NCBI GenBank assembly: GCA_001600455.1
Contig: BCKC01000003.1
Span: 2,428,168 to 2,492,167 of the forward strand
Direction of reading: 5' to 3'
DNA: 64,000 nt
DNA from: Endocalyx cinctus
Lineage: Eukaryota > Ascomycota > Sordariomycetes > Amphisphaeriales > Apiosporaceae
The position numbers and the translations under genes are program-made. The notes under the pieces are model-generated. The model was not told where the DNA came from. It ran no database searches and saw only the letters and a list, made by a program, of their open reading frames with translations. This document shows positions 10,179-61,303 of the stretch, piece after piece (position 1 is the first letter of the stretch; every line of letters begins with the position of its first letter).

Positions 10179-11550
10179 TATGTCCCTCTTCGGATCTTCC
10201 AGCGTGTCTGTGTAACGGATTTTATACACTACACTACGCTCAATGTGTCCATGTTCGTGCTCAGGTGCTCAGTCCTATCGGATATAAGAGTACATGACAA
10301 AGCGAGATAGGAATCGTCCCAATCGACCGAGTCGGTATGAATCATGCTCACTCATTTCTGACGTGTCATTTAGAGTCCAAGTAACATGAAACCAATAATA
10401 TAATTGATGTTGGCTCGATATTGATTGTTGAGCTATTTAAATGAAGAGATAATGATGGCTGTGTTGGGGAAGATTGACGATGATTGACAGATTTATTATC
10501 TTACATGCGATCTTATCGCCTAACTTTATAAACGATGGTGTACTTATTTCCGACGATAGCACGGTTACATGCACTAATGCGAGGGGCAGGTTTAACCCTA
10601 CCCTGGTTAATTACCTACTTCTGCTACTGTGTAGGCCCTGCCTGCCACCCTAGTCACCTAGTGTACAGTACCCTAATGCCATGCCTTGATGCCCCGGTAG
10701 AGCGAAATTTGTCTTTGCCGCAAACTATCATCGTCAAGGCGGTCAGTTTCATGAATCATGATAACTTCTAGGACGTAGATTCCTAAGCAAACAAAATTAT
10801 ATCCATGGATACAAGACAATACAAAGCGGAGGCTAGTTAAGTTTCCGTCCTTGAATAAAATTCAATTAGTTTGTTTTTCTACAGAGTACACTGTATTACA
10901 TTATTAATCTTCCAACCTATGAAATTATCGCCCCGCATTACCCTCGTTGCCCTCATCGCCCATCCATCATAAAATTGGTTTGTGCCGTACCGTATTACGT
11001 GCTTTTATCTACCTTTGATACCTTTGATACCTCTGATTTGTGAAGATAGTTACACCATTTACCTTTTACGGCGGCATTGAGTATTATTCAGCTCACCGTA
11101 TATCTCATAATATCTTACGTACTGTATTCCACTCGACTCCCCCCCAAGTACGGAATTAGTAAACATCGGAGGAAAGTTTGTATGTGATAGTAACATGCTA
11201 AGATCCATTCTGCCCTCCTCTTATTATACCATACATCTCTAAACTGTTTCTTTCCAGTTTTCTACCTTCCGTGTTGTGTGTAATCTAGTAAAAATGGATA
11301 GACTCTTGTTCGCGGATTACCAATCTTCTAACTTCCTATCTCCTTGATTAATGTCCGCTTACCTCGCAATAAATTCCTATCTTCAAATCTGCAACCTTGT
11401 TGACATGTCTCGAAGATAATTGGCCAGTGAATCTCTTATACTTAACTTGACGATTTCCCTCTTCAGGTCATTTCCTGGAGAGTAATTCTTAGTTTTACAC
11501 CTTAGTCCACCATACTATAATCCTTTTGCAATACGCTCACGTCAGTCACC
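9492..11550. other. 2-kb intergenic region upstream of the MFS and ABC transporter genes
   Basis: A shared divergent promoter region between the MFS gene (minus) and the PDR transporter (plus). It holds A-rich and T-rich runs near 9540-9650, a (GA)n tract at about 10142-10173 and pyrimidine-rich DNA before 11550. No credible coding frame was found. I did not recognise a specific drug-response element. Confidence 0.6.
10142..10173. repeat. (AG)n microsatellite, about 16 units
   Basis: An uninterrupted AG dinucleotide run between ACACA and CGAGATATG. It lies in the divergent promoter region of two transporter genes, more than 600 bp from either start codon. Confidence 0.9.
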
Positions 11551-14500
11551 ATGTGGGGTAGCGTGCTGGATACGGATACTCTTCGGCGTAGTGGTATAGA
11601 GACAAGTCAGTCACAGAGACATCATGGGGATCCCCAATCACATCTCGATCAAGGAGCTATTGAGGAGTTACCCGATCTTGAGGCCGCTCAGAGTAGAGAA
11701 GGAACATGGGGCGAACGAGATGTCGGCGGGCTCGACGAGTATCGGGCCATGGAGGAGCTGCACGAGTTAAGGCAGAATCTCACCCAATTACATAAGTCGA
11801 GGACTAGGGAGACCTACGATTTATCTAGAACGCACACAAGACGAACAGCGAATACGCATCCTGGTACAGATTTAGATATTCTCGAATCCGGTCAGGATGG
11901 CGATGACGAGGACGATTTTGAGCTCGGAAAATTCATGCGTGAGGGTCACTTTGAAAAGCGCTCGGAGACTGGCTCGCAAAAGAAGGTTGGCGTTGTATAC
12001 AAGAATCTCACCGTGAAAGGTACAGCCAACACGGCTTCGTCCGTCCGAACACTGCCGGATGCTATACTAGGCACTTTTGGCCCTGATCTGATTCGTGTCC
12101 TCCAGAAGTTCATACCTTCCCTACGATTCACAAAACCTCTTACGCGAACCCTGATCCACGATTTTACCGGCTTCGTTCGAGATGGGGAAATGATGCTTGT
12201 CCTCGGCCGGCCAGGTGCTGGTTGCAGCACCTTCCTTAAAGCTGTCAGCAACGACCGTACATCTTTTGCCGCTGTTGAGGGAGATGTATCGTACGGAGGA
12301 ATACCGGCCGAGAAGCAGAAAAAGATGTATCGTGGGGAGGTCAACTATAACCCCGAGGATGACATTCATTTTGCTTCCCTAAACGTCTGGCAAACTTTCA
12401 TTTTTGCCCTCATGAATAAGACCAAGAAAGGGTCCAAGGCGGATATACCCATAATTGCGAACGCACTCATGAAGATGTTCGGAATAAGTCATACCAAGTA
12501 CACACGAATCGGCGACGATGTGATACGCGGAGTGTCTGGTGGTGAGCGTAAGCGAGTATCGATTGCCGAGACCCTAGCATCCAAGTCAACCGTCATGGCC
12601 TGGGATAACTCGACCCGCGGCCTGGATGCCTCTACCGCATTAGATTATGCCAAATCCCTTCGCATCATGACCGACATCAGCAATCGAACGACCCTAGTCA
12701 CGCTCTATCAAGCGGGCGAAGGCATCTACGAACTCATGGATAAAGTATTAGTCATTGATCAGGGTCGCGAGATCTTCTCCGGGTCTGCCAAGGAAGCTAA
12801 GCAGTATTTCATCGACCTCGGATTCGAATGCGCCGAGCGACAGACGACGGCGGACTTTCTAACTGCCGTCACCGACCCTCGGGAGCGACGTTTCCGACCC
12901 GGTTTCGAGAATACGGCTCCCAAAACTCCGGAGGAGTTGGAGAGGGCCTTTCGCGGTTCTCATCACTACCAGGTCTTGCTACAGAGCGTCCGCGAATATG
13001 AGGAGCACCTACGGGAAACAGACTTCGAAGACGCAAAGAAATTCGAAACCGCCGTTCAAGAGGGCAAGTCCAAACATGTGAACGAGAAGTCCCCTTACAC
13101 CGTTTCTTTCCCCCGCCAGGTTTGGGCCTGCACGAAGCGAGAGTTTTGGCTCTTGCTTGGTGACAGAACCACGCTTTACACCAAGGCTTTCATCATCATT
13201 TCCAACGCCCTGATCGTCGGCTCGATCTACTACAAACAACCTTTCTCCACCGCCGGAGCCTTCTCTCGTGGTAGCACTTTAATCTTCGGTATCATCTTCC
13301 TGGGATGGCTCCAGCTGAGCGAACTCATTAAAGCTGTTTCTGGCCGTACCATAGTCGCGCGTCACCGAGACTACGCCTTTTACCGACCGTCCGCCGTCGC
13401 GCTCGCGCGGATCATACAAGATTTTCCAGTCGTCTTCGTCCAAGTTGTTGTTTTTGGTACTATATTGTACTTCATCTCTAACTTGGATGTGAAAGCTAGC
13501 AAGTTTTTCATAAACCTTCTGTTCACGTACCTAATGACTATCAACCTCACTGCGCTGTACCGAATGTTCGCTTCTCTATCTCCGGAAATCGACACGGCTG
13601 TGCGCTTCTCGGGTGTTGGTCTCAATCTGCTCGTCATCTTTTCTGGGTACATTATCCCAAAGACACAGCTTTTGAGCAAGTATATCTGGTTTGGCTGGAT
13701 ATATTGGATTAATCCAATTACCTACAGCTTTGAGGGTGTTATGACAAACGAATTTTTTGATCGCGAGATGCAATGCGCCCCCGAGCAACTTGTACCCCAG
13801 GGACCAGGAACTATGTCTGGATATCAAGGATGTGCACTAAGTGGTGCTCAAGCAAATTCTGATTTTGTTTCCGGCGAAGATTACGTCCAGACTGCCTACG
13901 GGTATGACCGGGCCAACCTCTGGCGAAATTTTGGAGTTGTCATTGCCTTCACCGTATTTTACATCATCGTCACTATTATCGCTACCGAGACCATCACGTT
14001 CACTCCAAATGATGGAGGAGCACTTGTGTTCAAGAACACTCGCAAGACTAATCAAAGAGTTAAGGAAGCGCGCGAGCCATCTGACGAGGAGAAGGCCACC
14101 GATGCTCTCGGAACCAATGGATCTTCTACGCCCCTCGATGAATCTCCTAGCAGATCCAACAAAAACCAAAACGAGGATCTAGGACAGCTGACGAAGAGTG
14201 ATTCAATTTTTACGTGGCGCGACCTCGAGTACACGGTCCCTTACCTAGGAGGCGAGCGGAAGCTGCTGAATAAAGTAAGCGGCTACGCCAAACCGGGTGT
14301 CATGGTGGCCCTCATGGGAGCTTCGGGAGCCGGTAAATCGACGCTGCTCAATACGCTCGCCCAGAGACAGAGCATCGGCGTCGTTACGGGCGAGATGTTC
14401 GTTGACGGACACGCGCTCGGACCCGAATTCCAACGCAACACCGGTTTCTGTCTCCAGGGCGACCTGCACGATGGCACGCAAACCATCCGCGAGGCGATCG

Positions 14501-16369
14501 AGTTCTCGGCTCTACTGCGCCAAGAAGCAAGCGTCCCGCGCGCCGAAAAGATCGCCTATGTGGACAAAATCATAGAGCTCCTCGAGCTCGAAGACCTTCA
14601 AGATGCTATCATCTCATCTCTGGGTGTCGAGCTGCGCAAGCGCCTCACTATTGGCGTTGAACTGGCGGCCAAACCTTCCCTTCTCCTCTTCCTAGACGAG
14701 CCAACTTCGGGTTTAGACTCGCAGTCGGCGTACTCTATCATTTCCTTCTTGAAAAAGCTATGCGCAGCCGGTCAGGCTATCGTCTGCACCATCCACCAGC
14801 CTAGCTCGGTCCTCATCCAGCAATTCGACATGGTACTGGCGCTGAACCCGGGCGGCAACACCTTCTACTTCGGCCCCGTCGGCGAGAACGGCAGTGAAAT
14901 CATATCGTACTTCGCGGAGAGGGGTGCCACCTGTCCTCCGGGGAAAAATATCGCAGAGTTCCTGTTGGAGACGGCGGCGAGGCCCCACCGGAGACCCGAT
15001 GGTACCAAAGTCGACTGGAACGACGAGTGGCGGTCCAGCGATCAGGCGCAAAAGGTGCTCGAGGAGATCGACAGCCTCAAGCGCGTCCGGAGTCAAGCCA
15101 TCTCCACGTCGACTGCGACGCCGTCAGAAGAACAACGGAGGGAATACGCGGCCTCGACGTATGCGCAGACGGTCGAGCTAACGAAACGCATGTTCAGGCA
15201 GTACTGGCGAGAGCCATCGTACGTGTACGGCAAATTTTTCGTGTCGGTCCTGATGGGCATCTTCAACGGGTTCACGTTCTGGCAGCTAGGCCACACGGTC
15301 CAGGACCTGCAGAACCGACTCTTCACCCTTTTCATACCGGTCATCATGCCGGCCGTCGTTGTGAACACGGTCGTGCCCAAGTTTTACTCCAACATGTCCC
15401 TGTGGGAGACCCGCGAGTACCCTTCTCGCATCTACGGATGGGTCGCCTTTTGCACGGCTAACGTCATCGCCGAGATACCTAGCGCCATCGTGAGCGCGCT
15501 TATTTACTGGCTTACCTGGTACTGGCCCTCGGGTCAGCCGACCCAGAGCGAGGCTTCCGGTTACACGTTCTTGATGGTCCTGCTCTTCTTCTTGTTTGTT
15601 AATTCTTGGGGTCAGTGGATTTGCGCCTTCGCTACGAGGGTGACGGTTATTTCAAATGTGAGTTTGGTTCTTATTATAATGAATAAAAATATAACAAAGT
15701 CATCATATCTATATAAGGAAATAGGAAATTCTAACACGACAAATAAACAGGTTCTCCCATTCTTCTTCGTAATATTCGCCCTATTCAATGGCATCGTGTA
15801 CCCTTACAGGATGCTTCCCGTGTTTTGGAAATATTTCGTCTACTACGCCAACCCGGCGACGTACTGGATTGGCGGCGTTTTGGGTGCCACCTTGCACGGC
15901 GTTCCAGTCGAGTGCGCCGTCACCGAGACGGCCCGATTCGACGCTCCACCGGGACAGACATGCTCCCAATACGCAGACGCCTTCGCTGACTCGGCTGGAG
16001 GATACCTGTTGAACCCTGAAGCGTCGAGGGATTGCCAATATTGCCCCTATAAGACGGGAGATCAATACTTAGCGACGCTGAATGTTGATCCAGGGCAGAA
16101 GTGGAGAGGTAAGTGATTGACATTTAAAAGTTCCATCAGCCAACGACGCCTTTTTTTTTTTTTTTTTGGTCAAGGAAGGAAAGAACTAGAGCTAACTCAA
16201 AGTGAATTTGAAAACAGATTTCGGTATCTTTCTAGCATTCTGCATCTCGAATTGGTTGCTACTTTACTTCTTCATCTACACGGTCCGCGTTCGCAAGTGG
16301 GCTTTCGGGTTTAGACAGGTCGGGAAGGCATTAAAGAAAATAGGAGATGTCGTGAGGAAAAGAAAGTGA
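11551..16369 (+). CDS. full-size PDR/ABCG-type multidrug ABC transporter
   Basis: Exons 11551-15657, 15751-16108 and 16218-16369 give 1538 residues, normal for fungal pleiotropic drug resistance pumps. The order is (NBD-TMD)x2. NBD1 has the degenerate Walker A GRPGAGCSTF (from residue 219), signature VSGGERKRVSI and TRGLD. NBD2 has canonical Walker A GASGAGKST (from residue 923), a degenerate signature LGVELRKRLTIG and LLLFLDEPTSGLD. This asymmetry is typical of the family. Intron 1 (15658-15750, GTGAGT...CAG) is 93 nt, in frame and free of stops; removing it restores VISNVLPFFFVIFALFNG. Intron 2 (16109-16217, GTAAGT...CAG) contains a long T run; the last exon adds the final membrane span and basic tail. 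Without exon 3 the protein would lack that span. It exports hydrophobic compounds across the plasma membrane using ATP; the substrate is unknown. Confidence 0.96.
15658..15750 (+). other. stop-free, in-frame 93-nt intron of the PDR transporter
   Basis: GTGAGT donor and AACAG acceptor. It lies between TVISN and VLPFFF, is exactly 31 codons long and lacks a stop. Unspliced transcripts would still encode a full reading frame up to the next intron, with a polar 31-residue insert next to a membrane span. Confidence 0.8.
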
Positions 16370-17818: not shown

Positions 17819-18151
17819 ATGTGTTGGGATATAACTACTAAGCTAGCATGCGGTCATCATTCCGGGGACAGAATGGTGCTCTGCAAGAGGTTTGAAAATG
17901 AGCCGGAAGACTGCAGGTGGTTGGAAAGAATACAGGAAACTTCGAGCTTCTGGTGCAAGAAACCTCATTGTCGCTTTCTAGCAATGAGACGTCTCATGGC
18001 TCCTCAGCCTAGATGCTGCGATCTAGATGAAGAGTGTTGGTGTTTAGGTGAAGAAAGACGTCATTCTCGTGAGGAAAAACAGAGACGAGAGAGAGAAGAA
18101 TGCAGCATGGAGGATTTTATGATAGACATCAACAGGGAAGACGGGATATGA
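17819..18151 (+). CDS. small cysteine-rich protein (110 aa)
   Basis: A single-exon frame from ATG 17819 with Cys at 2, 11, 22, 32, 46 and 51 and a further cluster (PRCCDLDEECWC) near residues 84-95. The first part shares MC-x8-CGH/C, C-x9-C and WC-x4-C spacing with the gene at 16715-16924. The C-terminal 30 residues are charged (RRHSREEKQRREREE) and likely helical. There is no signal peptide. The Cys/His pattern suggests zinc binding, but no named domain was recognised. The upstream CAATCAAATC leader and in-frame Cys conservation support the start. Proteins of this kind with an MCW opening are common orphan-type genes in filamentous ascomycetes. Confidence 0.6.
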   Translation: MCWDITTKLACGHHSGDRMVLCKRFENEPEDCRWLERIQETSSFWCKKPHCRFLAMRRLMAPQPRCCDLDEECWCLGEERRHSREEKQRREREECSMEDFMIDINREDGI

Positions 18152-18417
18152 AGATGACGATAATGGTAACAGACTGGTTAAGCTCTCTTCCTTGTAACTC
18201 CTATAGTGGAGAACAATTGGATATATGAATACCTTGGTTTGGTATATTATTGATAAATTGAAGTTATCTTTTAAACACATATAACTTAGATATCCCCCCA
18301 CGTCCCCCACCATTGATGACATATCCTTCTTTGTCTCTTTAAACTTCAATCTCCGCAATATAAACATCGCTCATTTTTCATCCCAAATAGCGATTGAAAA
18401 ATTGATATGACCTGACA

Positions 18418-19526
18418 ATGCGTGGACGCGGCGGCGCCCGAGGAGGTGCCCGAGGAGGATCTCGAGGAGGAGGAGGCGGCGGCGGAGGCCGAATGCCTTC
18501 TACCAAATGGAGTCGCTTGAAGCCCGTCGAACTTGATCCTTTGGAGGCAATGGGTTTACCCTCCAAAGGAGACAATAGGTATGTGCGGTATTACTCTTGT
18601 CCGATGTTGCGTTGCATAATTGAACACAAACTTTTCTGCCAAAGAATGTAATCTAATAATTCTCAAAACACGATGTACCTAGGTTACTAGACTTCAAGAC
18701 GCAAGAACGTTACCATACCAAAATCGTCGAACGCTATATGACATTCTGCTCCGATGCCGGCGAACGTGACGAGCTCCTGCGTCGATTCTCCTCTCTCGAT
18801 ATTACCTCCAAAAAGGAGAATTACGATCCTCCTCCCCCTTCTACATCTTCTACGAACAAATCTCTTTCTTCGAACGACAGCGGGCTGGCCCCGAGCTCTT
18901 CTTCCACGGGTTCGAACACAACGATAAACAGCGATACAAAAGGCCTATCTGACGTGTTATCGGCGCTCAGGAAACTGCGTGAAGGCATCGTAGCCTCTAA
19001 ACGGGCCGACGACTTCGCGATACAGGCTTACCTCTTCTGCATTCGGTTATCAGTTCTGGTCAAGCACCACGAGTCGTACCATCCCGCTATCCTTCATCTC
19101 CTACGCCGCATCCAACCTCATCATAGCATGACGACGGTCGAGCTTACCGAGGTGGTCGCCTACCTCGTCCTGGACACGGCATGTAGGAGGAACGACCTCG
19201 CCGAGGCGTACTCCCTGAGACATAGATACCGGCTCCGGGACGCCCGGATAGACGCGGTGCTGGACGCATTGACGCACGACAACTACGTCAAGCTGAACCG
19301 GCTGAAGAAGAGGGTCGACAGACACCGGGCAAAGATCCTCGAGTACGCCGACGAGGGCGTGAAGAAGCATCTCCTGAAATGTTTTGGTAGAACTTATCTT
19401 AGCGTCGACTTGCCCTTTCTCGAAACTTGCTCCGACGCGGAATGGGCTAGTCTCACTGTGGATTACGGCGTTGGCTGGGAATTAGACGGTGGGAAGGTCG
19501 TCATAAGAAAGGTGAAAGCACGATAA
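18418..19526 (+). CDS. RGG-tailed CSN8/PSMD8/EIF3K-domain (PCI-like) protein
   Basis: Exons 18418-18578 and 18683-19526 (intron 18579-18682, GTATGT...CCTAG) give 334 residues. The N-terminus (about 1-25) is an RGG/poly-Gly tract, an RNA-binding type of sequence. A short conserved block follows (KWSRLKPVELDPLEAMGLPS). The second exon starts in frame with LLDFKTQERYHTKIVERYM. After a Ser/Thr-rich disordered stretch (about 85-125) comes an all-helical region: SALRKLREGIVASKRADDF, AYLFCIRLSVLV, LLRRIQPHHS, VVAYLVLDTACRRNDLAEAY, then VGWELDGGKVVIRKVK. This helical-repeat plus winged-helix layout matches the CSN8/PSMD8/EIF3K family, whose members are scaffold subunits of the COP9 signalosome, proteasome lid or eIF3. 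Which complex, if any, this one joins is not clear. It converges with erdS. Confidence 0.75.
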
Positions 19527-20157
19527 AAAAAAAGTTGAAAAGGTTTAACGAATTTATTGATACCCTTGTGGAAATGAAGAAACAAAAAGATATATGATTA
19601 TTAATCTATATATATATATATATAATTATTAACTTCCCTTGTTCATCGCCATTGGTATCATAAGGGCCTGCCGTGCTCCTTCAAGATGGCATTTTCAGGT
19701 TGTTTAAGGTTGTTCCAAGTTTGGGGTCTTAGTATTGAGGTTCGACGTCTCGACGGAAACTTCATCATTATCATGAAAAGTAATTACGCTGAGCATCCTT
19801 AAACTAGAAATATTACAGGAGTGGGTATTCGAACTATATTATAAATGTAAATTATTTACAGATATATACTTTGGTGGAATCAATACTAATAATTAAGGAA
19901 AATGCCGCACAATGGTCCGGTGTATCAAACACTGGGGTATCGAATCCGTACTTCCTCGCTGTCTATTGAGGTAATAGAAAAAAACTCAAGAAAAAAATCG
20001 TCAATAGCAATAGTAATTATATCTCGTAAACATCATATTCGTAAAAAGTGAACATCTAATCCAAACTAGATTAGAGAGAGGGGACGAGAAGGGTGGTGGG
20101 AAACTCTTGTAGTTTTTAACTTTTTTTTTATCCCGAAGGTATCAGCTTTTTCTTTCT
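19527..20157. other. intergenic 3' region between convergent genes
   Basis: 631 bp between the CSN8-like gene and erdS, whose 3' ends face each other. It is AT-rich, with a (TA)n tract at about 19606-19624 and short A/T runs. No coding frame is seen. Confidence 0.6.
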
Positions 20158-23022
20158 TTACATCTCGTCTTCGAAGAATTTTATCAGCGTCCTTGCACCG
20201 GAGACACCCAGACCCATGAACGGGTAACAAATATAAACGGGATCATTCTTGGCTCCGAACTTGTCTCGGAACTCGCTCTTGGCCACGAGTCTCAACTGTT
20301 GCGCGACCGCCTTATAGACCTTAGCGAGGATCCGCGCCCGTACGCCATCAAGGTTATGACCCGTCGCCAACTCGCTCGTAGCTCCCGCTCCGAACGTGAT
20401 ACTCTTCACCCCCGCCGCTGTCAACACCCTTATGGACTGAGAGATAAGCGCCTCGATAGACCCCGACGGCGCCCCCGGGAAGTCCAGCGCGAATTTGATC
20501 TGGTACCCGTGCGCGGGCGATAACCGGTGCAAGACGACCAAGCCGGCTATCGCGCCGTGCTTATCTTCCGCCCACAGGTACCGCCTATGTTCGGGGGAGA
20601 TCCAAGGTCTCACCTCGGTGAGATGAACCTGCTTGCGCCCCGCGCGAGCCGCCTTCCACTCCTCTATGCGGGCGTCGCATTTCTTCATCACCTCCTCGGG
20701 TATCGGCTCTCCTAAACCCGTCTCCCTTATCTTGACGTCGGCGTTCCGCGCGCGCCGCTCCTTCTTGGTCACGACGTCGTCCTCGTCCTTCGCCTCGGCG
20801 ACGCCGCCGGGCTCGACCCGCTCCTCGGCCACGCAGGTGAGCGTCCGCCACCCGAGCTGCCCGCCGAGGATCTCCTCGACCTCGGCCGACACGAGGAGCC
20901 AGACCGGCCGCAGGTCCTCGGACGACTTGAGGTGTCGCAGGAACCGCGCGATCACGATCGGGTACTGGCGCGCGTCGCACAGCGGGTTGCCCATGATCAT
21001 GGCGTACCCGTTTTCCGACGCGTAACCCACGGCGGCGCCCGTCCTGTCGCCGGTTTCGGCGCCGGGGGCATCGACGTCGCGCCATACCTTGTACCGGTCG
21101 TCGAGCCACGAGGTGTTGGTCGCGTCGCCGTAGTTGACTATCAGCTTATCCAAGTCCGGGAGTTCTGGTTTTTCGCCGTTTTTCTCGTCTCGCAACGACA
21201 ACGACAACGACGAAGAGGAGGAGGACGACGACAGCAGCGCGTACCTGATCGTGTCGGCTTCCGGGAACGGCAAGACCTGCGACGGCTCGGTCGGCTTCTT
21301 GCCGCTCCTGTCCTGCAGCGACTTGGGGTCGCGCGGGAACATGGACGCGTTGCGGATGTCGCCCAGCCCCAGGAGGAGGAACAGGACGCGCTCGAGGCCG
21401 ATCCCGCAGCCGGCGTGGGGCGGCGCCCCCCAGGCAAACGCGGCCATGTACTCGTCCATGCCCCCGCCGCTGGGCTCGACGCCCGCTTTCCTCATGCGCT
21501 CGCGCAGCAGCTTCGGGTCGTGGATCCTCTGCCCTCCCGTCGTGATCTCCTGCCCCCGCAGGAAGATGTCGAACGAGTTCGTCTTGGACTCGTCGCTCGG
21601 ATCGAGATGCGTGTAAAAGGGGCGGGCCGAGGCCGGGAACTTGTCGATGATGTAGTAATCCGTCTTGTACTTCTCCTTGACGAGCTCGCCTATCCTAATC
21701 TCGGCGCGCGTCGACAGGTCTTCGTTCTCCGACGCCTCGTTTCCGGCGTCGTCCCTCCATCCGGATTTGTTCAGGAGGTCGACGGCTTCTTTGAACGAGA
21801 GACGCGGGGTCCGGTCCAGCCAGACGAGATCCTCGTGGGGAAACCGCGTTTTCACGTTGTCGAGTTCCTTGCGATACCGGGGAGAGTATACGGCGGCGAA
21901 GATAGCCTTGAACATCTCGTCTATGATGTCCAGAGCCTCGTGGTAGTTTTGCTGTATGGCCATCTCCAGGTCCATGCCGGTATACTCGGTCAGGTGGCGG
22001 TGGGTGTTGCTGTTCTCGGCGCGGAAGACGGGGCCGATCTCGAAGACGCGACCGAAGTCGGCCGAGATGGTCATCTGCTTGGCCAGCTGGGGGCTCTGCG
22101 CGAGGAAAGCGGTCCGGCCGAAGTACCTGACGGGGAACACCTCGGCGCCCGATTCCGTCGCGGCCGGCTGGAGTTTAGGGGTCTGTATCTCGATGAAATC
22201 CCGGTCCTCCAGGGAGACCCGAAAAGCGGCGCAGATGGCCGATCGGATGCGAAAGACGCTCTGCATGACGGGCGTTCTGAGGAAAACGATCCGGTTGTTC
22301 TCTCGGACCCGGTTCGACGCCGCGAGCTGGTCCTCGTGCGTCTCCTCGTTCTCCTCCACCTGGTCCATCGAGAAGACGTCGAGCGATAAGGGCTCCTCGG
22401 GCGAGACGAGCACGTGCATGCCGGTGATGAGCAGCTCGACGTCGTGCAGGTTGCACGACTTGACGGCCTCGGGCGGCTTCCGCACCTCGCCCCGGACGTG
22501 CACTATGCTTTCGGTGTAGAGATGCTCGGCCCAGCGGACGAACTTTTCCGACACGAGGCCGTCGCGTACCTGTAGGACGCCCTGCACGGTGTCGGACTGC
22601 TGTCGCAGGAGAACGAAGGCGAGCTTGGCGCTCATATTCCGGACATGGTGCACGCGGGCCGTCAAGCTCACGGTCTGGCCGATATGGCTCGGCGACAGGT
22701 CTCTAAGCTGAACGTCGTCCGACCGCGGTAAGTCATTTTCTGCGGAAAGAGTCCCGTACGCGGAGGCTATTTCGGGCGGATCAGCCGAGCGCGCCGCTTC
22801 CTCTTCCTCTTTTCGCTTCGACTTTAAGGATTGGCGGGCTTCCTGGGCGGATTCTCTCCGGGCGCTGGCTTCGTATAGGGCTTTTAGGCGTTTCTTTTCC
22901 GTCTCGTTCTCAAGCTCGTCTATGTCTCCGAGTTTTAGCTTGGTGATGTGATTCTTGGCACTGGAATGTCCGATAATCCTATTTAGTAGGAGCAGCGGCT
23001 TTTTAAGTGTGCCGGCAGGCAT
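20158..23022 (-). CDS. erdS: ErdS: aspartyl-tRNA synthetase-DUF2156 fusion (ergosteryl-aspartate synthase)
   Basis: A single-exon gene of 954 residues. Residues 1-100 are a Lys/Glu-rich eukaryotic extension. An OB-fold anticodon-binding domain follows (TVSLTARVHHVRNM...), then a class II AspRS core with motif 2 at about 333 (GPVFRAENSNTHRH) and motif 3 around Arg545 (GCGIGLERV). Next comes a poly-Ser/charged linker (about 595-620), then about 330 residues of DUF2156, an aminoacyl-tRNA-dependent transferase fold (from KLIVNYGDATN at 626, including YAMIMGNPL and GYQIKFALDFPG). Ordinary cytosolic AspRS ends soon after motif 3, so the fusion is diagnostic. In Dikarya this architecture is the ergosteryl-3beta-O-L-aspartate synthase: the synthetase half makes Asp-tRNA and DUF2156 moves Asp onto the 3beta-OH of ergosterol. 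Its divergent neighbour is the matching hydrolase ErdH. The synthetase motifs look intact. A separate housekeeping AspRS should exist elsewhere. Confidence 0.93.
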   Translation of the reverse strand: MPAGTLKKPLLLLNRIIGHSSAKNHITKLKLGDIDELENETEKKRLKALYEASARRESAQEARQSLKSKRKEEEEAARSADPPEIASAYGTLSAENDLPRSDDVQLRDLSPSHIGQTVSLTARVHHVRNMSAKLAFVLLRQQSDTVQGVLQVRDGLVSEKFVRWAEHLYTESIVHVRGEVRKPPEAVKSCNLHDVELLITGMHVLVSPEEPLSLDVFSMDQVEENEETHEDQLAASNRVRENNRIVFLRTPVMQSVFRIRSAICAAFRVSLEDRDFIEIQTPKLQPAATESGAEVFPVRYFGRTAFLAQSPQLAKQMTISADFGRVFEIGPVFRAENSNTHRHLTEYTGMDLEMAIQQNYHEALDIIDEMFKAIFAAVYSPRYRKELDNVKTRFPHEDLVWLDRTPRLSFKEAVDLLNKSGWRDDAGNEASENEDLSTRAEIRIGELVKEKYKTDYYIIDKFPASARPFYTHLDPSDESKTNSFDIFLRGQEITTGGQRIHDPKLLRERMRKAGVEPSGGGMDEYMAAFAWGAPPHAGCGIGLERVLFLLLGLGDIRNASMFPRDPKSLQDRSGKKPTEPSQVLPFPEADTIRYALLSSSSSSSSLSLSLRDEKNGEKPELPDLDKLIVNYGDATNTSWLDDRYKVWRDVDAPGAETGDRTGAAVGYASENGYAMIMGNPLCDARQYPIVIARFLRHLKSSEDLRPVWLLVSAEVEEILGGQLGWRTLTCVAEERVEPGGVAEAKDEDDVVTKKERRARNADVKIRETGLGEPIPEEVMKKCDARIEEWKAARAGRKQVHLTEVRPWISPEHRRYLWAEDKHGAIAGLVVLHRLSPAHGYQIKFALDFPGAPSGSIEALISQSIRVLTAAGVKSITFGAGATSELATGHNLDGVRARILAKVYKAVAQQLRLVAKSEFRDKFGAKNDPVYICYPFMGLGVSGARTLIKFFEDEM

Positions 23023-24516
23023 GGTGAAAAGGGGGAGAACCGGGGAAATTTGGACAAAAGTAGCTTGTAGATTGGTTTTAAGTAATTGGGGTATTTTGAG
23101 GGAATAATGTATTGTTAGGTAAATATGATGATAGGAGATGATAGGAGCAGAAACGAGAGGTGTTATGATTTGACGTCTTGAGTAAGTATTCAGGACACCT
23201 TAAATATAGATATATGACTAAATTTAGGTAAATCTAGTCAAGAAAGGAAGAAGATTCAAAGAAGGTATTGGGTATTAAATATACAAGGTCACGTAAAGGT
23301 AGGGTTTTCTTCTTCTTTTCTTCTTTGGAGATGTTAGAAGTAGGTTGTGTAAAATCTACGGGTTATAACTCATTTAACATGCAGTAGAGGGAAAGATGAC
23401 TTCGTATTGATCGAGGTTTCCTCTTAATTAATACCTAATGAAATATCAGCCTCGGTTGCCGTTTTTATAAGGACTTCATGTTCTTCCAGACTATTCATGC
23501 GCCCTGTATAATTCGAATCAAACCCCACGGTAGACGAATCATAATTCCATCCCATAGGTAGCTGTGCTACTAGTTATTGAATTGTTTAATAATAATGATG
23601 TCCAGGTTCACTACGATTAATTCTATCACAGTGAACGTAAATTACACGTAAGACAGGCCCGGAGCAAAAGCTCAGCTTCAACAGAACCAATTAGAATAGA
23701 GAAAGGAAGAAGATATTACCCATTTTGGAATATATCCACTTCTGCCCTAACCTGTTTTTATGCATCCTATTCCCGGATGCAATTCTACGGCTTTCCAGAT
23801 TGAAAATATTTCTGGTATGGTTATAGGCCTGTAACAATGGATATATAGCATAACGATCAGGGGATACAGAACTTGTAACATTTTATGACATCACCATTTT
23901 GATAGATCGAGATTCTTATGAAGAACATTTCCGTGTATTAAATTCATTATCTGAAATCTAATATATATCTTAACAAGATAATCATAATATGGAGAAAATA
24001 TTCGAAGTTATATACCTAGGTAAGGTATCATGTTTATGAAGTCTGGGAAAACGTATTAGTTAGGCGTATTGTTTTAGTTTGTTACGGGAGTGGCTTGCTT
24101 GGTATGGATATGCACCCGCATCCATTTTGAGATCGGTTGGGAGGTCATGCCATGCCATGATATGGATGCGTCACAGATAAGCTATTCTAAAGTATTAATC
24201 CAAGATATTTATTCATGGAAGATCTTTTTTTTATAGTAACTCTACTGTACATAATTTCCAGCTCGGGAAATTCTTATCATCCATTATATCCTATATCTAT
24301 CGATTTCATGTATTATTATTTCCTTACCTAAACATTAAATCATCTTCTTACCTCAAATCATCCGTGGCACTTTTTCTAATTTCAATTTCTTAACATTCTT
24401 ATTTAGATCAAATACATTCGCAAGAAAAAAGAATTACCTGAGGCTATACTTGGGATTGTTTTATTTAATTACTTAGAGAATAGAAAAAGAGAGGAAAATA
24501 TAAAACGAGAACAAAG
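23023..24516. promoter_or_regulatory. shared divergent promoter of erdS and erdH
   Basis: About 1.5 kb separates the divergent starts of erdS (minus) and erdH (plus). It is AT-rich with no coding frame. A TTCTTCTTCTTTTCTTCTTT pyrimidine tract lies near 23308-23327, and AT-rich DNA sits before each start. Head-to-head placement suggests coordinated control of the writer and eraser enzymes. That is inference; no specific factor site was identified. Confidence 0.5.
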
Positions 24517-25764
24517 ATGGAAACGGTCGCAGGTCTACCCACGAAAGTAGCGTCTATACCGGCGGGAACAGAATCTAACCCCGAACTCCCGCCCGAGAAG
24601 AAACCGGAAAAAGCTAGCGATAAGACCGGACCGCCCCCTTCACGTTTCTCGTTGCGCATGTCGGCTAATTGGTGGAGGTCGCTACAATGCATCGGCATGA
24701 ACTTACACTTCTTAGCCCCTCCTCGACCACCAAACCCGAATTTCACCAGGTCGATCCCATCCACTTTGTCTAGTAGAGGAGGTAATTTCGACCTGGAATT
24801 TTACCTTCCTAAAGGCTACGAGAAGAGAAAGGACTCTTCGTTACCCTCGTCGTCGAAGTGGCCGGTGGTGGTAAATTTTCACGGAGGCGGGTTTACGCTA
24901 GGGAACCCGACCGACGACGCCCGGTTCGCGCGCGTCGTCCTGGAGAAGTCCAAAGCCGTCTTCGTCTCGGTCGGATACCGCTTAGCCCCCGAGCACCCTT
25001 TCCCCGTAGCCGTAGACGACGGCGCCGACGCGCTTCTGTACCTCATACGCAACGCGGCCGATCTCCGCCTCGACCCGAACAAGATAGCCGTGTCCGGATT
25101 TTCGGCCGGCGGAAACGTCGCGATCACGGCGCCGATACGATTACGTCGATATTTCAACCAAGTCGCGGAAGGGATACCACAATACACGATATGCGCTCTT
25201 GCCACGTGGTATCCTATCACGGATTACACCCTGAGCAGGGCCGAGCGACGCGCGTCCGCGGTGCGCCCCGAGCAGACGCTTCCCGCTTCCCTGACCAACC
25301 TTTTCGACGCGTCTTACCTGTTTCCCCCGAACTTGGATCTCACGGACCCGTGCCTCTCTCCTTCCAGAGCTTCGGATAAGGAATTGATAGAATCCATTCC
25401 CCGCAATGTCCTGTTTTATACGTGCGAATGGGATATGTTGCTGCTGGAGGGAGAAGAACTCGCGCGGAGGTTGCAGAAGGCGCCGGTATCGAAAAAAGTC
25501 GCGTATACGATGATAAAAGGGGTTCCGCACGGGTGGGATAAAGGGCCTAACCCGATGAAGGCGCCGCCCAAGTCGGAGAAGCTCTACGAGGAATGCTGCA
25601 GTGGGTTAAGAAATGTATTCGAAGGAGGTGATCTTGATTCGGTGTTTCTAAAACCGCGGAAAGTTCCTTCAAAATCATCTTTCCTAAAGTCAACGAATAA
25701 CGATAATGGCGGTAAAGATGGTTCGAGTAGTAGTTTTAGTCAAACCTCTACTACGCCAGGGTAG
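24517..25764 (+). CDS. erdH: ErdH: alpha/beta hydrolase, predicted ergosteryl-aspartate hydrolase
   Basis: A single-exon gene of 415 residues in the hormone-sensitive-lipase/arylacetamide deacetylase branch of alpha/beta hydrolases. The oxyanion-hole motif HGGGF is at about 122-126, VGYRLAPEHPFP follows, and the nucleophile Ser196 sits in GFSAGG. The matching acid is Asp306 (EWDMLLLEGE) and the base His338 (VPHGWDKGP), so the triad is complete. The N-terminal 60 residues are Pro/Lys/Glu-rich and variable; the C-terminus is Ser/Asn/Lys-rich. There is no signal peptide. The assignment as ErdH, the esterase that removes Asp from ergosteryl-aspartate, rests on the fold and on its divergent pairing with erdS, an arrangement recurrent in fungi. 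By sequence alone it could be a general sterol or lipid esterase. Confidence 0.85.
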   Translation: METVAGLPTKVASIPAGTESNPELPPEKKPEKASDKTGPPPSRFSLRMSANWWRSLQCIGMNLHFLAPPRPPNPNFTRSIPSTLSSRGGNFDLEFYLPKGYEKRKDSSLPSSSKWPVVVNFHGGGFTLGNPTDDARFARVVLEKSKAVFVSVGYRLAPEHPFPVAVDDGADALLYLIRNAADLRLDPNKIAVSGFSAGGNVAITAPIRLRRYFNQVAEGIPQYTICALATWYPITDYTLSRAERRASAVRPEQTLPASLTNLFDASYLFPPNLDLTDPCLSPSRASDKELIESIPRNVLFYTCEWDMLLLEGEELARRLQKAPVSKKVAYTMIKGVPHGWDKGPNPMKAPPKSEKLYEECCSGLRNVFEGGDLDSVFLKPRKVPSKSSFLKSTNNDNGGKDGSSSSFSQTSTTPG

Positions 25765-26597
25765 ATGATAATAATTACTTACTATGTACGATTCTGGATA
25801 CATACGTACCTACTCCTTGATGTATTTTCAAACATGTATATTCAATTCAGCTATAACTACCTAAATAGTACATAATATTCTCAAATATGTAACATCTATA
25901 TCAGAAGATTTTAATATTATCTTGTCTTGATATAAATATATATATCCAATTATATAGGGCAACCCGATCACTGAAAGGTTTGGAGGGGTTTGAGGGGGAA
26001 CTGGGGGATCGTAGGAGAGGATGTAGCACTAAAATGCTACGCTACTACGTCATCCCGCTATCCATGTCAATTTATAGAAGTTTTACGTGCGCTAGGAGCA
26101 TTTATTCCGTACACCCAACGGCCACTAAAGTCACTAAAAGTCATCAACCCCTGTTCTACCGCTTATCCGCTAACGTCATTCTGTTTCTTTACTGTAACCA
26201 ATCGGTACCTACATCTTACAGTATCTACCTACCTGGTACCTACCTGGTATCTAGGTTAGTGTACTTAGGTACTTTCTTTAGGTATTCCTTAGCTTTTCTT
26301 AGCTATCGTCAGCGTTTACGAGTTGTACCGTAAATACTCCTGGAAGGTGGTTGATTATCTCAAATATTAGCAGATATCGTGGCGAAAGAAAACCCTCCAT
26401 TTCTCAAACTATGATGATTTATGCTTTCCTTTCTGCCTTCTCTCTTCAGATATATCCCGTGTGAAAGGCTATCCATCTACCATATCAGATTTAAACTACT
26501 AGCCATGTCGACTGAATGAATATGGAATATAGCGGCACCAGCTAACTAAAACGACCCACCAATCATAAGCGTAAACCTCGAGGAACAAAACGTACCA
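25765..26597. other. intergenic region downstream of erdH
   Basis: 833 bp, AT-rich near erdH. It includes two tandem copies of TACCTACCTGG at 26226-26236 and 26237-26247, part of the CTAGG/TACCT-type simple sequence scattered through this window. No convincing coding frame; the 117-codon frame at 25980-26333 has no domain or composition support. Confidence 0.55.
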
Positions 26598-27833
26598 ATG
26601 GCTGAGGAAAATTGCGATTCGCAGGGGGCTGTTCGTGAAGCGGCGGTGGCGGCGGTAAGAGGGGAGACAGAAAGTAGGAGTTCGACCAGCGAGACGGCGG
26701 GGCCGAGGAAAGGTCGGGAGGGAGATGAGGAAGTACTTCCTGGTCTACCACGACTAGAATACGATGTCTTTCACAACAAGCCCAAGTTATTCATCGTATG
26801 CGGCTTGTTGATCGCCGAGGCCAGCATATTACCTCTGATCCTATTTTATCCGCTCCGATACTATTCCGATTTACGTCCTGGAGTCTGTGAGTGATGACTT
26901 CTTCCTTCAACTCTCGTGCATGAAATAAATTGGCAAATCATCGAATATGGGACCGTTTCGAACCAGCTTTGCTTTTATATATCAAAACTGACATATAGAG
27001 TGATTTGAATGAAACAAAACGTAAAGACTTTGCCATTATCACGTCCTTCTTCGGCATCATATCCGGTCTCGAGTTCGCCCTGCGATCCTGGCGGCTCATC
27101 CTCAAAGACGACACGTACCGTCCCATCGACGGTAAACGGTGGCACTTCGACTTCGCCCACGTCACCCTCAGCAGCGGGTACACGGCGATGACGGGGATCC
27201 TGATCGGCGCCTCGATCCCGCACCCGCCCGTGGTGCGCGTTCTGGCCATCCCGCTTTCGCTCTTCCTCATCCAGCTCGGGTCCCAGTGCCTCGCCACGGG
27301 ATACATGTGCGCCAGGGGGCTGCCCGCCCTGTGCAAGGTCAGCTCCGTGGCGAAAGGGGAGCCCATACCCCCTCTGGTCCTGACTCTCGTGGAGGACATC
27401 ATCGCGGTCGACGGAGGGGCGGGTAAGCCCTATAGGAGGAGGATTCACGAGAGGTACCGCGTGAGCAGGCGGTTTAGAAAGATGGTCCAGCAGCTCAACT
27501 GGTTTTGGGGCGTTGGCTTGCTCTTGGATGGCATAGCGCTTATGGTGGTTATCTGGACGGTACCCCAGGATATCGGTTACGGAATTGGTAAGTCCAATAT
27601 TTTCTTTTTCTACTTCTTGAATAGGTGGAGAGGTTACTTTTCAAGAATTAGAAAAGAAAGCTGATACGTGATACCTAGGTTGGGCGGAGCCTTTGGTATT
27701 TGCTACCATATGGGCGATCATTACGGTACTATGGACGCGTCGAAGTGTGCGATTGGAGAAGAAACATTGGGTCCGAGATCTGAGAGATAATGGGCTACAG
27801 TTAGAAACGTCTCCAGTATCTCAGGTGGAGTAA
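26598..27833 (+). CDS. polytopic membrane protein of unknown function
   Basis: Exons 26598-26886, 27027-27587 and 27679-27833 give 334 residues. Intron 2 (27588-27678, GTAAGT...CCTAG) is clear. Intron 1 (26887-27026, GTGAGT donor) ends at AAAG; this is the only acceptor that keeps frame and avoids the TAG at 26996, but it is less certain. The N-terminal 50 residues are Glu/Ser/Arg-rich and cytosolic-looking. Six or so hydrophobic segments follow, including KLFIVCGLLIAEASILPLIL, FAIITSFFGIISGLEF, TLSSGYTAMTGILIG, VLAIPLSLFLIQLG, WGVGLLLDGIALMVVIW and EPLVFATIWAIITVLW, then a basic tail. It resembles a fungus-restricted family I know only as hypothetical. It lies 0.8 kb downstream of erdH on the same strand; a link to sterol aspartylation is conceivable but unsupported. 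Confidence 0.75.
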
Positions 27834-57107: not shown

Positions 57108-59295
57108 TCAAACATGTGTTTCTCCGCTGCCACGAGTCATAAAAGGATCCGCCCAGTTCACTTTATCATTATCCGGGTAGGTGAAATATTGCGTGTCTGG
57201 GTCTCTTCTATCGATGAACCATTTCACGTCGGCCTGATCGATACCCATGAGACTCATCGCGGCGCGCCCGCTACCATCTCCAATCGCGTTGGTCAGCTCC
57301 GCGAAACCTTGCACGGTCGCGTCCCGGGAAAACATGATGATGCGTTCTACTATCTTCATCCACCGTATGATGTGGTCGGCGTCCAACGTCCCCTGCATCA
57401 TCCGTACCTCGATCGTCTGGTAGATACCCGGGCGCGGCAGCGGTGTGACCTTATTGCCGCTCAACAAAAATCGGACGCTGCAGCGTACAAATACTAGGTC
57501 TCCTCGCACTATTTTAGACGATGTAATATTAGCATTTTGTCTGATAATTAAAGAAAAAGGAAGTAAGGAAGGGGAGTGAGATATAAGCCATGATTCTGTG
57601 GCTTGAGCAAAGCAAGTCTTGGGATAAACTCCCAATAGCCAGCAGATAGCCTTTCATTATCATGACTTTTTCTCTTTTTTTTTCAATTTACTTACTGTAA
57701 GCTGTTAGTGAATCAATCTTAGGAGCATTCCATACGGCCCACAGAAACCGTTGATCTCCTTCCTCCAGATTCGTAGGAGGCACGTGTTCCTCGAAAGCGG
57801 CCACGTTCGCCGCTACCGTCTCTGGGTCATCTGGTTCATCAAGCACGGCGTTGGCATAGTCCTTGAGCATATCAGCGAGGTGACAGTGCGTCCGGATGGG
57901 CTTGTGCCAGCCGGACGTGTTGCCGGTGAGAGCGGTGCGGTCAATCCGGTGCAGCTTATATAGCGCTGGCTCGAGCATGTACCAGATGGTGACGAACCTC
58001 TTCAGGGTGGTCAAGGTCCAGCCGGCCTCCTGCCCGAAGTGGATATGCAGGCCGCTGGTCGTAGCCGTCATGGGCTTGTGAATGCGTAACCCGTTCCGCA
58101 GGGCCGCACATACGGCGCGGATCTGCTCGAACGTCTCAGGCCGGTTAAAGTCCAGCACTGGCGTCTTTATCTCGGCCGGGAACCACTGGTAAATGTGAGG
58201 CGGCACAATCACCCCTTGCAGCGCGGCCGGGATCGACCCGCCGGGTATCGTGTAAAGCTCGAGGCCGTCGACATGTGCTGCGATACCGACTGAGCTGTCC
58301 GCCGCGCAGTTCCATTGGTAGTAACTTTTGTTCAGTCCGTCGATCTTAACGAGGAGCAGGTCTTCGTTCTGGCTGAACGAATCCTCATAATCCAGCCGAG
58401 CCTGTTGCAAGTCTCTGCGATTTCTAGACCAAAATCGGAAGACGGCGCTGTTCTTCTCGGCATCGCTGAAGTTGTCCGGCAAGGAATCCCTTACTTTAGC
58501 CTGAAGCCCGTCGATAACCGCTACCTTAGTGAGACGATATTGGAAATCCGCCTTCGTTGTCTTGCAAGCTTCAAATGAGACCTGTAGGGCACGCACCGCG
58601 GCATCTAAGTTGTGCATCGCGGAAAGTGCAGGATTGAAAACATATTTGGGAACTGTCCAATTGTTCAAGACGACGTCGTTATCGTTAGGTTCTATGTCGT
58701 TTTCTTCGAGCGAGTCTCTATAATCGAATTCATGGAGCGGGTGTTGGGTCTCGACGCCTTCATCATATTCTTGCAACCTTTTAGCAACTATTAAGCCGGC
58801 ACTTCTCATGATGTCAACAATTCGATTTCTTATTGTATATCCGACTGCCTTGTGCCTCCATTCATAAGTCTTGAGTATTTCAGAAAACCACCTATCATCA
58901 TTGGGGTGAGGGTCAGGCCACGATACATTCGCCACGGTAGGGGCAACTAGAAATTCAAATTCGACGCCGACAGTTGTTCGATTGTTTCCCTTTCTCACTT
59001 CCTCTTTTTCTTCTTCTTTGCCTCCACCCTTATCCGATTTCTCTTGACTCCCATCTGATTTCCCCTCGGAGTCCTGATTTTCTTCATTTTCCGTATCGTC
59101 GTCGGATCCGCCACTTGGATCGTCACCTTCAGGGTCCGATACAGAACGTGCAGGCTCTATCCTACGCCTCTTGCTATTCTCATATTCTTCGGCATTCAGC
59201 CTTCTCTTGCAACGATTATTACTAGAACTGGACTCATTGGAACTTCGTGATCTCTTGAAACGTTGACTAGGGTCGGAATTTTTTGGTATCCTCAT
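57108..59295 (-). CDS. amidoligase-family protein with basic/acidic N-terminal region
   Basis: Exons 59295-57696 and 57508-57108 (intron 57509-57695, GTAAGT donor, GCTAAT branch-like, AATAG acceptor) give 666 residues. Residues 1-105 are disordered with basic patches (KRSR, CKRR, SKRRR) and a Glu/Asp/Ser-rich stretch, suggesting nuclear targeting. The domain starts at about 110 with GVEFEFLVAP, whose Glu112 and Glu114 fit the metal/ATP-binding strand of the amidoligase (COOH-NH2 ligase) fold. Further conserved pieces are the EIKTPVLDF strand, SGLHIHFGQ (His417, His419) and the exon-2 segment TIEVRMMQGTLDADHIIRW. These proteins are predicted to form amide bonds in an ATP-dependent, ATP-grasp/glutamine-synthetase-like way. 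Fungal members are numerous but functionally unknown. The substrate, perhaps a protein side chain or small molecule, cannot be inferred. The splice-acceptor choice is well supported by frame but not proven. Confidence 0.85.
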
Positions 59296-61303
59296 GTCGG
59301 CAGATACTGGAATCGGGTTCTTTTTAATAATTATTGTGTATTATTAAAATTATGATTTCGGGAATTCAAAATGTTCTTAGACATTATGGATATACGACAA
59401 ACATCGTGCAGACAGCTACCATGTCTTACTATATATTCTCATTATGCGGATAGAAGTTTGATTGCTTTGAATACAATTGTTTACGGTCCTCTTTGAGCAC
59501 AATGCGAACTCAATCTTTGTGACAAACTTGACTAGGTGCTAGGTAAAACGACCATACTCGTTTTCTTTCACTTTCTTAAAATTATACAATGCCTATGTTT
59601 CTTCACGTTTCCTTTGTGCTTGAAGGGTTCTATTACGACATCACAGATAAATATAGACAGAATCGCTGTCATACCCATCCTTACATTGCAAGCTTCAATC
59701 ACCCCATTTTCTTTCTGTGGCTTTCAGCAGATCTTAACATCAGTAACAACAAGATTGAGAGTGAGTAAAGTATCTCACGTCGCATGTCCTTTTAACACTT
59801 GGTAGTGATGATACCAGCCTGACATGCGCGGTAGGCGATAGCTGATTATATTGAACTTGAAACACTACGGATGGCTTCTTATAAACCTAATCGTCACTGA
59901 ACATCTGTTATTTGATTCCTGCCTCCAATAACTGGTAGAAGTTTGATCTTGCTTTGAGATGGTACTTGATTTGCATCTTAGGAGGCCGGTCTCATGACGG
60001 GAGTGAACTCTATTAAAGCAGAGTAACCATACCAAAGCTCTGTCATCAGCCTCCATAATAAATATATATATTGAAAAGTTTAAGTCCCAAGAATTTTCGC
60101 ATCAAGGGTGCGATCGTCACCGTACCTCGAAATTATTGCTGTGGCATTCGTCTAGCCAGACGCTGGCCCCTAAGTATATGATGGACCTCTCAAGATGACG
60201 TTATCGGCAAAACGGCTTTCCATCTGTATGATGCCTTTTAAATGGACCGGAGCTCTCCCGGCATCTTGGCATTTTCTGTGAAGTTGCAGTTCACAGACAG
60301 AGAGGTCCGAGTTTACAACACCATACCGTACAAGCATCCGCTTAAGCTCGTAACTTAATGTCCGAATTTAGCGCTTTTGCTACCGCTACCGCTACCACTA
60401 TCGCCTTCGCTACTGTACTGGGCGATCAAGCTAAATACAGCTGAGTTGTATGGGTTTAGTAGTGAATTACTACTCGTTAGAAACTGACCTACAACTACTT
60501 AAGTACTTACTTAGGTATGTACCTAGGTACTTAGGTATGTAATGATTAGGGTTGACCATTTATTCATATTGTAATGAATATGGATAAACACTGCTCACCT
60601 AGATTATTTACCGAGAAGAGCTTATAAACGATACTCGGAGTTTTAAGAAATTTCTCTATATATTTTTTGGCTCGCGAATAGACGAAGTAATTACACCATA
60701 GACCCTTATATAATATCATATTATTTTCTATTATATAGTGCGGTATTTATTTATATATTTCTAATGGGAGAACACGTACTTCAGTGGTCTATTAGTGGTC
60801 TATCACCAGTACTATGTAAAGGCATTGTGTCTGTCGTGTACATATAAAACATAGGCTGAACCCTGAGACGCTAATAATATCATCAATTTATGAAACATTC
60901 AACTGGAAAAGCACCGAAATAAATAAACGTTGACGTAGTCACGGGCGTTAGATCTTGTGTTCCGACTTGGGTTTGTCGCAGATCGGGCGCCCGAGTCGTT
61001 TCAGAGTAGGACGAGACACCAAGGCACATTGCGCGTTTCTTCGTTCTAGAAACGTCAATAAATTCCATAATTATAGCATTTCATTCATTCTTTTTTTTTT
61101 TTTTTTTTAATTATTTTAATACGTTGGTTGATCTCGTCCTCATTTCATCCAAATTCATTATCATCACCATCATATCCTCATTATTCCATTCATTCGCAAT
61201 TGCTAGTCAAGCTGCATTCAAGCTGGTCTTTTTTGAATAATTCTTTTTTCCCGTGTCTATTAAAATAATATCCCAAAGTCCTCCAAACGGATATAATAAG
61301 AAA
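59296..61303. other. 2-kb intergenic region
   Basis: Between divergent genes (amidoligase, minus; PEBP-like, plus). It contains (GCTACC)3 at 60379-60396, an ACTTAGGTATGT direct repeat with 20-bp period (60509-60541), and an 18-T run at 61091-61108 in the proximal promoter of the PEBP-like gene. No gene was found. Confidence 0.55.
60509..60541. repeat. 20-bp-period TTAGGTA repeat
   Basis: ACTTAGGTATGTA occurs twice, starting at 60509 and 60529, separated by CCTAGGT. Same simple-sequence class as at 35701-35752. Confidence 0.6.

Follow-up and report, generated by a model that had tools for sequence, protein, structure and literature searches.

Organisation of the locus

The window, that is, the whole 64-kb stretch of DNA analysed here, lies on contig C3 of a 15-contig, 44.76-Mb genome and carries two divergent open reading frames, one for a fusion of an aspartyl-tRNA synthetase (AspRS) with a DUF2156 domain and one for an alpha/beta hydrolase (Table 1). 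Both are found, at 954 and 415 amino acids, where an earlier note on this DNA had placed them. No ATG-started ORF of at least 45 amino acids lies wholly inside the region between them (23023-24516); the largest there encode 43 and 44 amino acids, and a 77-amino-acid ORF that reaches into the region overlaps erdH antisense. In the intergenic sequence, short direct repeats form two families and there are five inverted pairs, all imperfect; none of these is put forward as a regulatory motif. No Rfam family was found at gathering score in 18000-27000, and no tRNA in the 64-kb window. Both promoters are presumed to lie in the intergenic region, and the divergent layout suggests that they may share a 1.5-kb control region.

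Table 1. Features of the probable erdS-erdH locus (window coordinates; residue numbers refer to the respective protein)
Feature	Position	Strand	Basis or size
erdS-like gene, AspRS-DUF2156 fusion, 954 aa, one unbroken frame	20158..23022	-	ORF, Pfam, homologues
AspRS module, residues 118-565 (OB-fold 118-204, class II core 238-565)	21328..22671	-	Pfam
QSPQ at residue 309, FRAE at 333 and GLER at 542-545 in the AspRS module of the synthase			
DUF2156 / LPG_synthase_C aminoacyl-tRNA transferase domain, residues 661-933	20224..21042	-	PF09924
Intergenic region between the divergent start codons, 34% GC	23023..24516	.	1494 bp
erdH-like gene, HSL-type alpha/beta hydrolase, 415 aa	24517..25764	+	ORF, Pfam, homologues
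HGGG at 122-125, GFSAGG with Ser196, Asp306 and His338 in the erdH-like product			

Domains and homologues of the synthase

Three Pfam families match the synthase in one frame, all above cut-off: tRNA-synt_2 (252.6 bits), OB-fold (33.7 bits) and LPG_synthase_C (60.4 bits). The last of these, PF09924, scores against a cut-off of 27.5 with an E value of 2e-16, so that the DUF2156 similarity proposed for the C-terminal part, the absence of which had been named beforehand as counting against the proposal, is indeed there. Motif 2 (FRAE) begins at residue 333, as the earlier note had it; motif 3 (GLER) is likewise present but begins at 542, residue 545 being its arginine. The AspRS had also been described as an apparently intact class II enzyme, in keeping with which there are no departures at the near-invariant columns of residues 236-570, and FRAE, GLER and QSPQ are invariant across a 17-row alignment (the window protein and 16 of the best 120 homologues, hand-picked for spread, to which it is 64-74% identical over the alignment). 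Because Met1 is invariant in these rows and most of the following 25 positions are similar, the start codon is supported.

A homologue search with the synthase gave 3088 matches at E <= 0.001 among 7994 scored candidates, and the best 120 of the 3088 show 61-71% identity at 97-100% query coverage. Many of these 120 are annotated merely as aspartyl-tRNA synthetase or hypothetical protein, and two (P0071 and P0100) carry the name 'ergosteryl-3beta-O-L-aspartate synthase'. In the PDB, entries 9w9e, 9w9f and 9w9g reach residue 952 of the synthase with 936-962 bits (9w9f is aligned over residues 42-952, E 4.2e-288), whereas ordinary AspRSs end at about residue 570. A structure model of the synthase built from 17 rows is poor (pLDDT 52.1) and lends no support to the assignment.

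The hydrolase and its linkage to the synthase

The hydrolase matches Abhydrolase_3 in Pfam (150.6 bits) and, with Ser at position 196, Asp at 306 and His at 338, has the full triad that had been claimed for it. All three, together with the HGGG motif, are invariant in an 18-row alignment, 17 rows of which were selected from the best 120 homologues. These 120 listed homologues are 57-71% identical to the window protein; many are labelled merely alpha/beta-hydrolase, and P0192, P0195 and P0196 (58-61% identity) have the source name 'putative ergosteryl-3beta-O-L-aspartate hydrolase', which is a name and not an assay. The structure model has a pLDDT of 81.3 (under 50 at the two ends, residues 1-35 and 390-415), and its 50 listed PDB matches are all esterases or lipases at 21-29% identity.

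Linkage of the two genes was assessed in 38 named organisms, matched by eye between the two lists of 120 homologues. In 36 of the 38 the longest contigs carrying synthase and hydrolase are of identical size, where about 1.8 such agreements would be expected by chance if a genome size of 40 Mb is assumed; Daldinia loculata and Hypoxylon rubiginosum are the two organisms without a same-size contig for both genes. A shared contig of megabase length does not amount to adjacency, but nine of the 36 pairs are on contigs of less than 250 kb (0.03 expected), the smallest of 12,664 bp. Locus tags are consecutive in Anthostomella pinea (Uu.00g013410 / Uu.00g013420) and in Cercophora sp. LCS_1 (OQA88_2434 / OQA88_2433), and two additional pairs agree solely in contig size (20,598 and 342,330 bp). 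In Aspergillus, we take erdS and erdH to be adjacent. By these comparisons the erdS-erdH pairing appears widespread and not new, and the suggestion of the earlier note that the novelty lay in the locus is not supported, same-size contigs being seen in 36 of the 38 organisms compared.

The linkage also bears on whether the hydrolase might be a general HSL-type esterase that happens to adjoin erdS and is inactive on ergosteryl-aspartate (Erg-Asp). Such a role would agree with its assignment to general Pfam and NCBIfam families only, with NCBIfam scores below the cut-offs, and with the 22 further matches to it in its own genome. Nevertheless, the best of these in-genome matches reaches only 36% over 231 residues, far from the identities seen among the 120 listed homologues, and linkage to erdS recurs in 36 of the 38 organisms; we consider a general esterase decidedly unlikely.

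A separate AspRS and the search for ErgS

ErdS is expected to coexist with a separate AspRS. A second, standard AspRS elsewhere in the genome, which the earlier note had named as a check, is present at C3:4687822-4689728 in three open pieces, the last of which has yeast AspRS (1eov/1asy) as its best match and ends at the last residue of the yeast enzyme; the gene is without a PF09924 match. It is this gene, along with the conservation of the DUF2156 part of the fusion across relatives, that makes it very improbable that the fusion is a plain cytosolic AspRS serving translation, with a DUF2156 domain devoid of sterol activity, even though its AspRS core appears intact and many homologues bear the aspartyl-tRNA synthetase label.

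An exon-by-exon search of the genome for a second PF09924 domain found none, the match in the fusion being the only one genome-wide even at E 10; the search was run with 14 control genomes, among which the presence of a fungus is not assured, and a split or diverged ErgS could escape it. Judged by PF09924, then, a freestanding ErgS is not detected in this genome. A search with residues 620-954 alone, aimed at freestanding ErgS, gave 139 matches. Among the best 120 of these, 86 have both PF09924 and PF00152, 32 have PF09924 only (fragments or freestanding proteins) and two have PF00152 only, and none is named ErgS.

Divergence and insertions in the synthase

Compared with 120 homologues, the synthase departs from near-invariant columns at 10 positions: two in residues 1-104, two in 105-235, none in 236-570, two in 626-760 and four in 761-954. 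Across the 121 rows the median number of departures is 4 and the maximum 19, with at least 10 in 12 rows, the window row included. The synthase is thus on the diverged side, though its relatives span a range that includes it. A tree of 31 ErdS rows places the window protein within a group of 24 (support 100/99), the named members of which we take to be Xylariales or near, so that the locus probably comes from a Xylariales fungus. Its neighbours in that group are Monosporascus and Diatrype (moderate support, 90/88), and its end branch is 0.34, against a median of 0.1.

In total, the synthase has 43 positions that most of the top 59 rows lack. Of these, 36 fall between residues 574 and 748 (window 20779-21303), where they make up four blocks: 574-577; 597-612, which contains a serine run; 652-660; and 742-748. 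The first two blocks are in the linker, the length of which varies among relatives too, whereas 742-748 fall inside the DUF2156 match. With inserted positions excluded, the aligned columns 551-750 are mildly less conserved than the rest, the second lowest of 60 rows. That the synthase is decaying and has lost sterol transfer, as the extra residues (one block of them inside the DUF2156 match), the long end branch and the six near-invariant departures in 626-954 might suggest, is scarcely credible given a frame open through 954 codons, insertions that lie partly in a variable linker, other intact rows with as many departures or more, and so slight a loss of conservation across 551-750.

Over the whole of erdS, GC at third codon positions is 0.82, and in the seven 100-codon blocks from codon 101 to 800 it is 0.85-0.97. 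The corresponding values are 0.50-0.77 for 13 other ORFs of the window, and 30 ORFs sampled genome-wide have a mean of 0.62, with 0.82 reached by two of the 30; the high value of erdS is not unique. The long antisense frame at 20716-22389 is probably a consequence of this high third-position GC. Faster evolution of the GC-rich stretch was considered and dropped, the effect being mild once inserted positions are excluded.

Relation to known systems

Collectively, full-length homology of the fusion, the apparently intact AspRS core, the triad and HGGG motif of the hydrolase, the separate AspRS and the recurrent linkage support well the ErdS/ErdH reading put forward in the earlier note, and the two genes are very probably orthologous to those of the ErdS/ErdH system of fungi. 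In such a system the AspRS module of ErdS would load aspartate onto tRNA-Asp, and the fused DUF2156 domain would make ergosteryl-3beta-O-L-aspartate by passing the aspartate of Asp-tRNA on to ergosterol, at its 3beta-hydroxyl; the ester would be split again into ergosterol and aspartate by ErdH, acting as a serine hydrolase. What this analysis itself contributes is the domain make-up, the conserved motifs, the separate AspRS and the linkage in relatives, whereas substrate, product and hydrolysis we infer from work on homologues. A more elaborate reading, in which a conserved divergent write/erase module has its Erg-Asp level set by the shared intergenic region, ErgS is absent, steryl-amino acids are aspartate-only and lineage-specific insertions tune transfer between the modules of ErdS, seems decidedly unlikely.

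The ErdS paper reportedly appeared in PNAS in 2020 and the ErgS paper in JBC in 2022, and the activity of ErdH is said to have been published. That fungal proteins aminoacylate ergosterol is noted in a passage of PMC10580965, and both ErgS and ErdS are treated in part of PMC10449517; PMC12492740 contributes no more than a reference entry. As the earlier note had maintained, the chemistry is already described: the ErdS reaction is stated in a passage of a review (PMC9437257), according to which a single protein combines AspRS activity with that of DUF2156. The window fusion has both modules. In A. fumigatus, AFUA_1G02570 appears as erdS, the ergosteryl-3beta-O-L-aspartate synthase, in a passage of PMC11619415 and as an AspRS in one of PMC4551469; 'ErdS' occurs once in the available text of PMC12717516. 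Among the papers listed by literature text searches, with the primary ErdS and ErgS papers outside their scope, none seemed to deal with ErdH or with the erdS-erdH arrangement. With the ErdS chemistry in print and the same pairing seen repeatedly in related fungi, the locus, though real, is an ordinary one and adds one more member to a known system.

Relative to the Xylariales rows, the window protein differs from ErdS in its 36 extra residues. The three PDB entries that align to its residue 952 (Aspartate--tRNA ligase, cytoplasmic; 862-947 aa) have a shorter linker and lack most of the inserted residues. The hydrolase is, like ErdH, an alpha/beta hydrolase linked to erdS, the comparison being made via homologues with putative names. 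ErgS, the ergosteryl-3beta-O-glycine synthase of Ascomycota, is also a sterol-acting aminoacyl-tRNA transferase (in a passage of PMC10449517), but it takes glycine from a separate synthetase, whereas the window protein has its AspRS in the same chain and so is not of the ErgS type. Bacterial LysX, like the window fusion, combines a synthetase and an MprF-type domain in one protein (in a passage of PMC9437257); LysX / MprF, however, place lysine onto a glycerolipid, and the LysRS part is C-terminal (NF002821 is matched at profile positions 588-1096).

It has been suggested that ErdS matters in fungal membrane remodelling, trafficking, antimicrobial resistance or pathogenicity (in a passage of PMC9437257). 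We would further expect an aspartate ester to alter the charge carried by the principal sterol of fungal membranes. The present locus is useful mainly as a well-delimited pair for the comparison of synteny and insertions.

Other genes in the window

Downstream of erdS, a 262-aa open frame (18738-19526, +) without a Pfam or NCBIfam match resembles, by eye, small PCI-type subunits such as CSN8 and may be of this kind. A single 1531-aa open frame at 11521-16116 (+) encodes a CDR/PDR-type ABC transporter, and a 550-aa open frame at 57688-59340 (-) matches Amidoligase_2 with 42.1 bits against a cut-off of 22.
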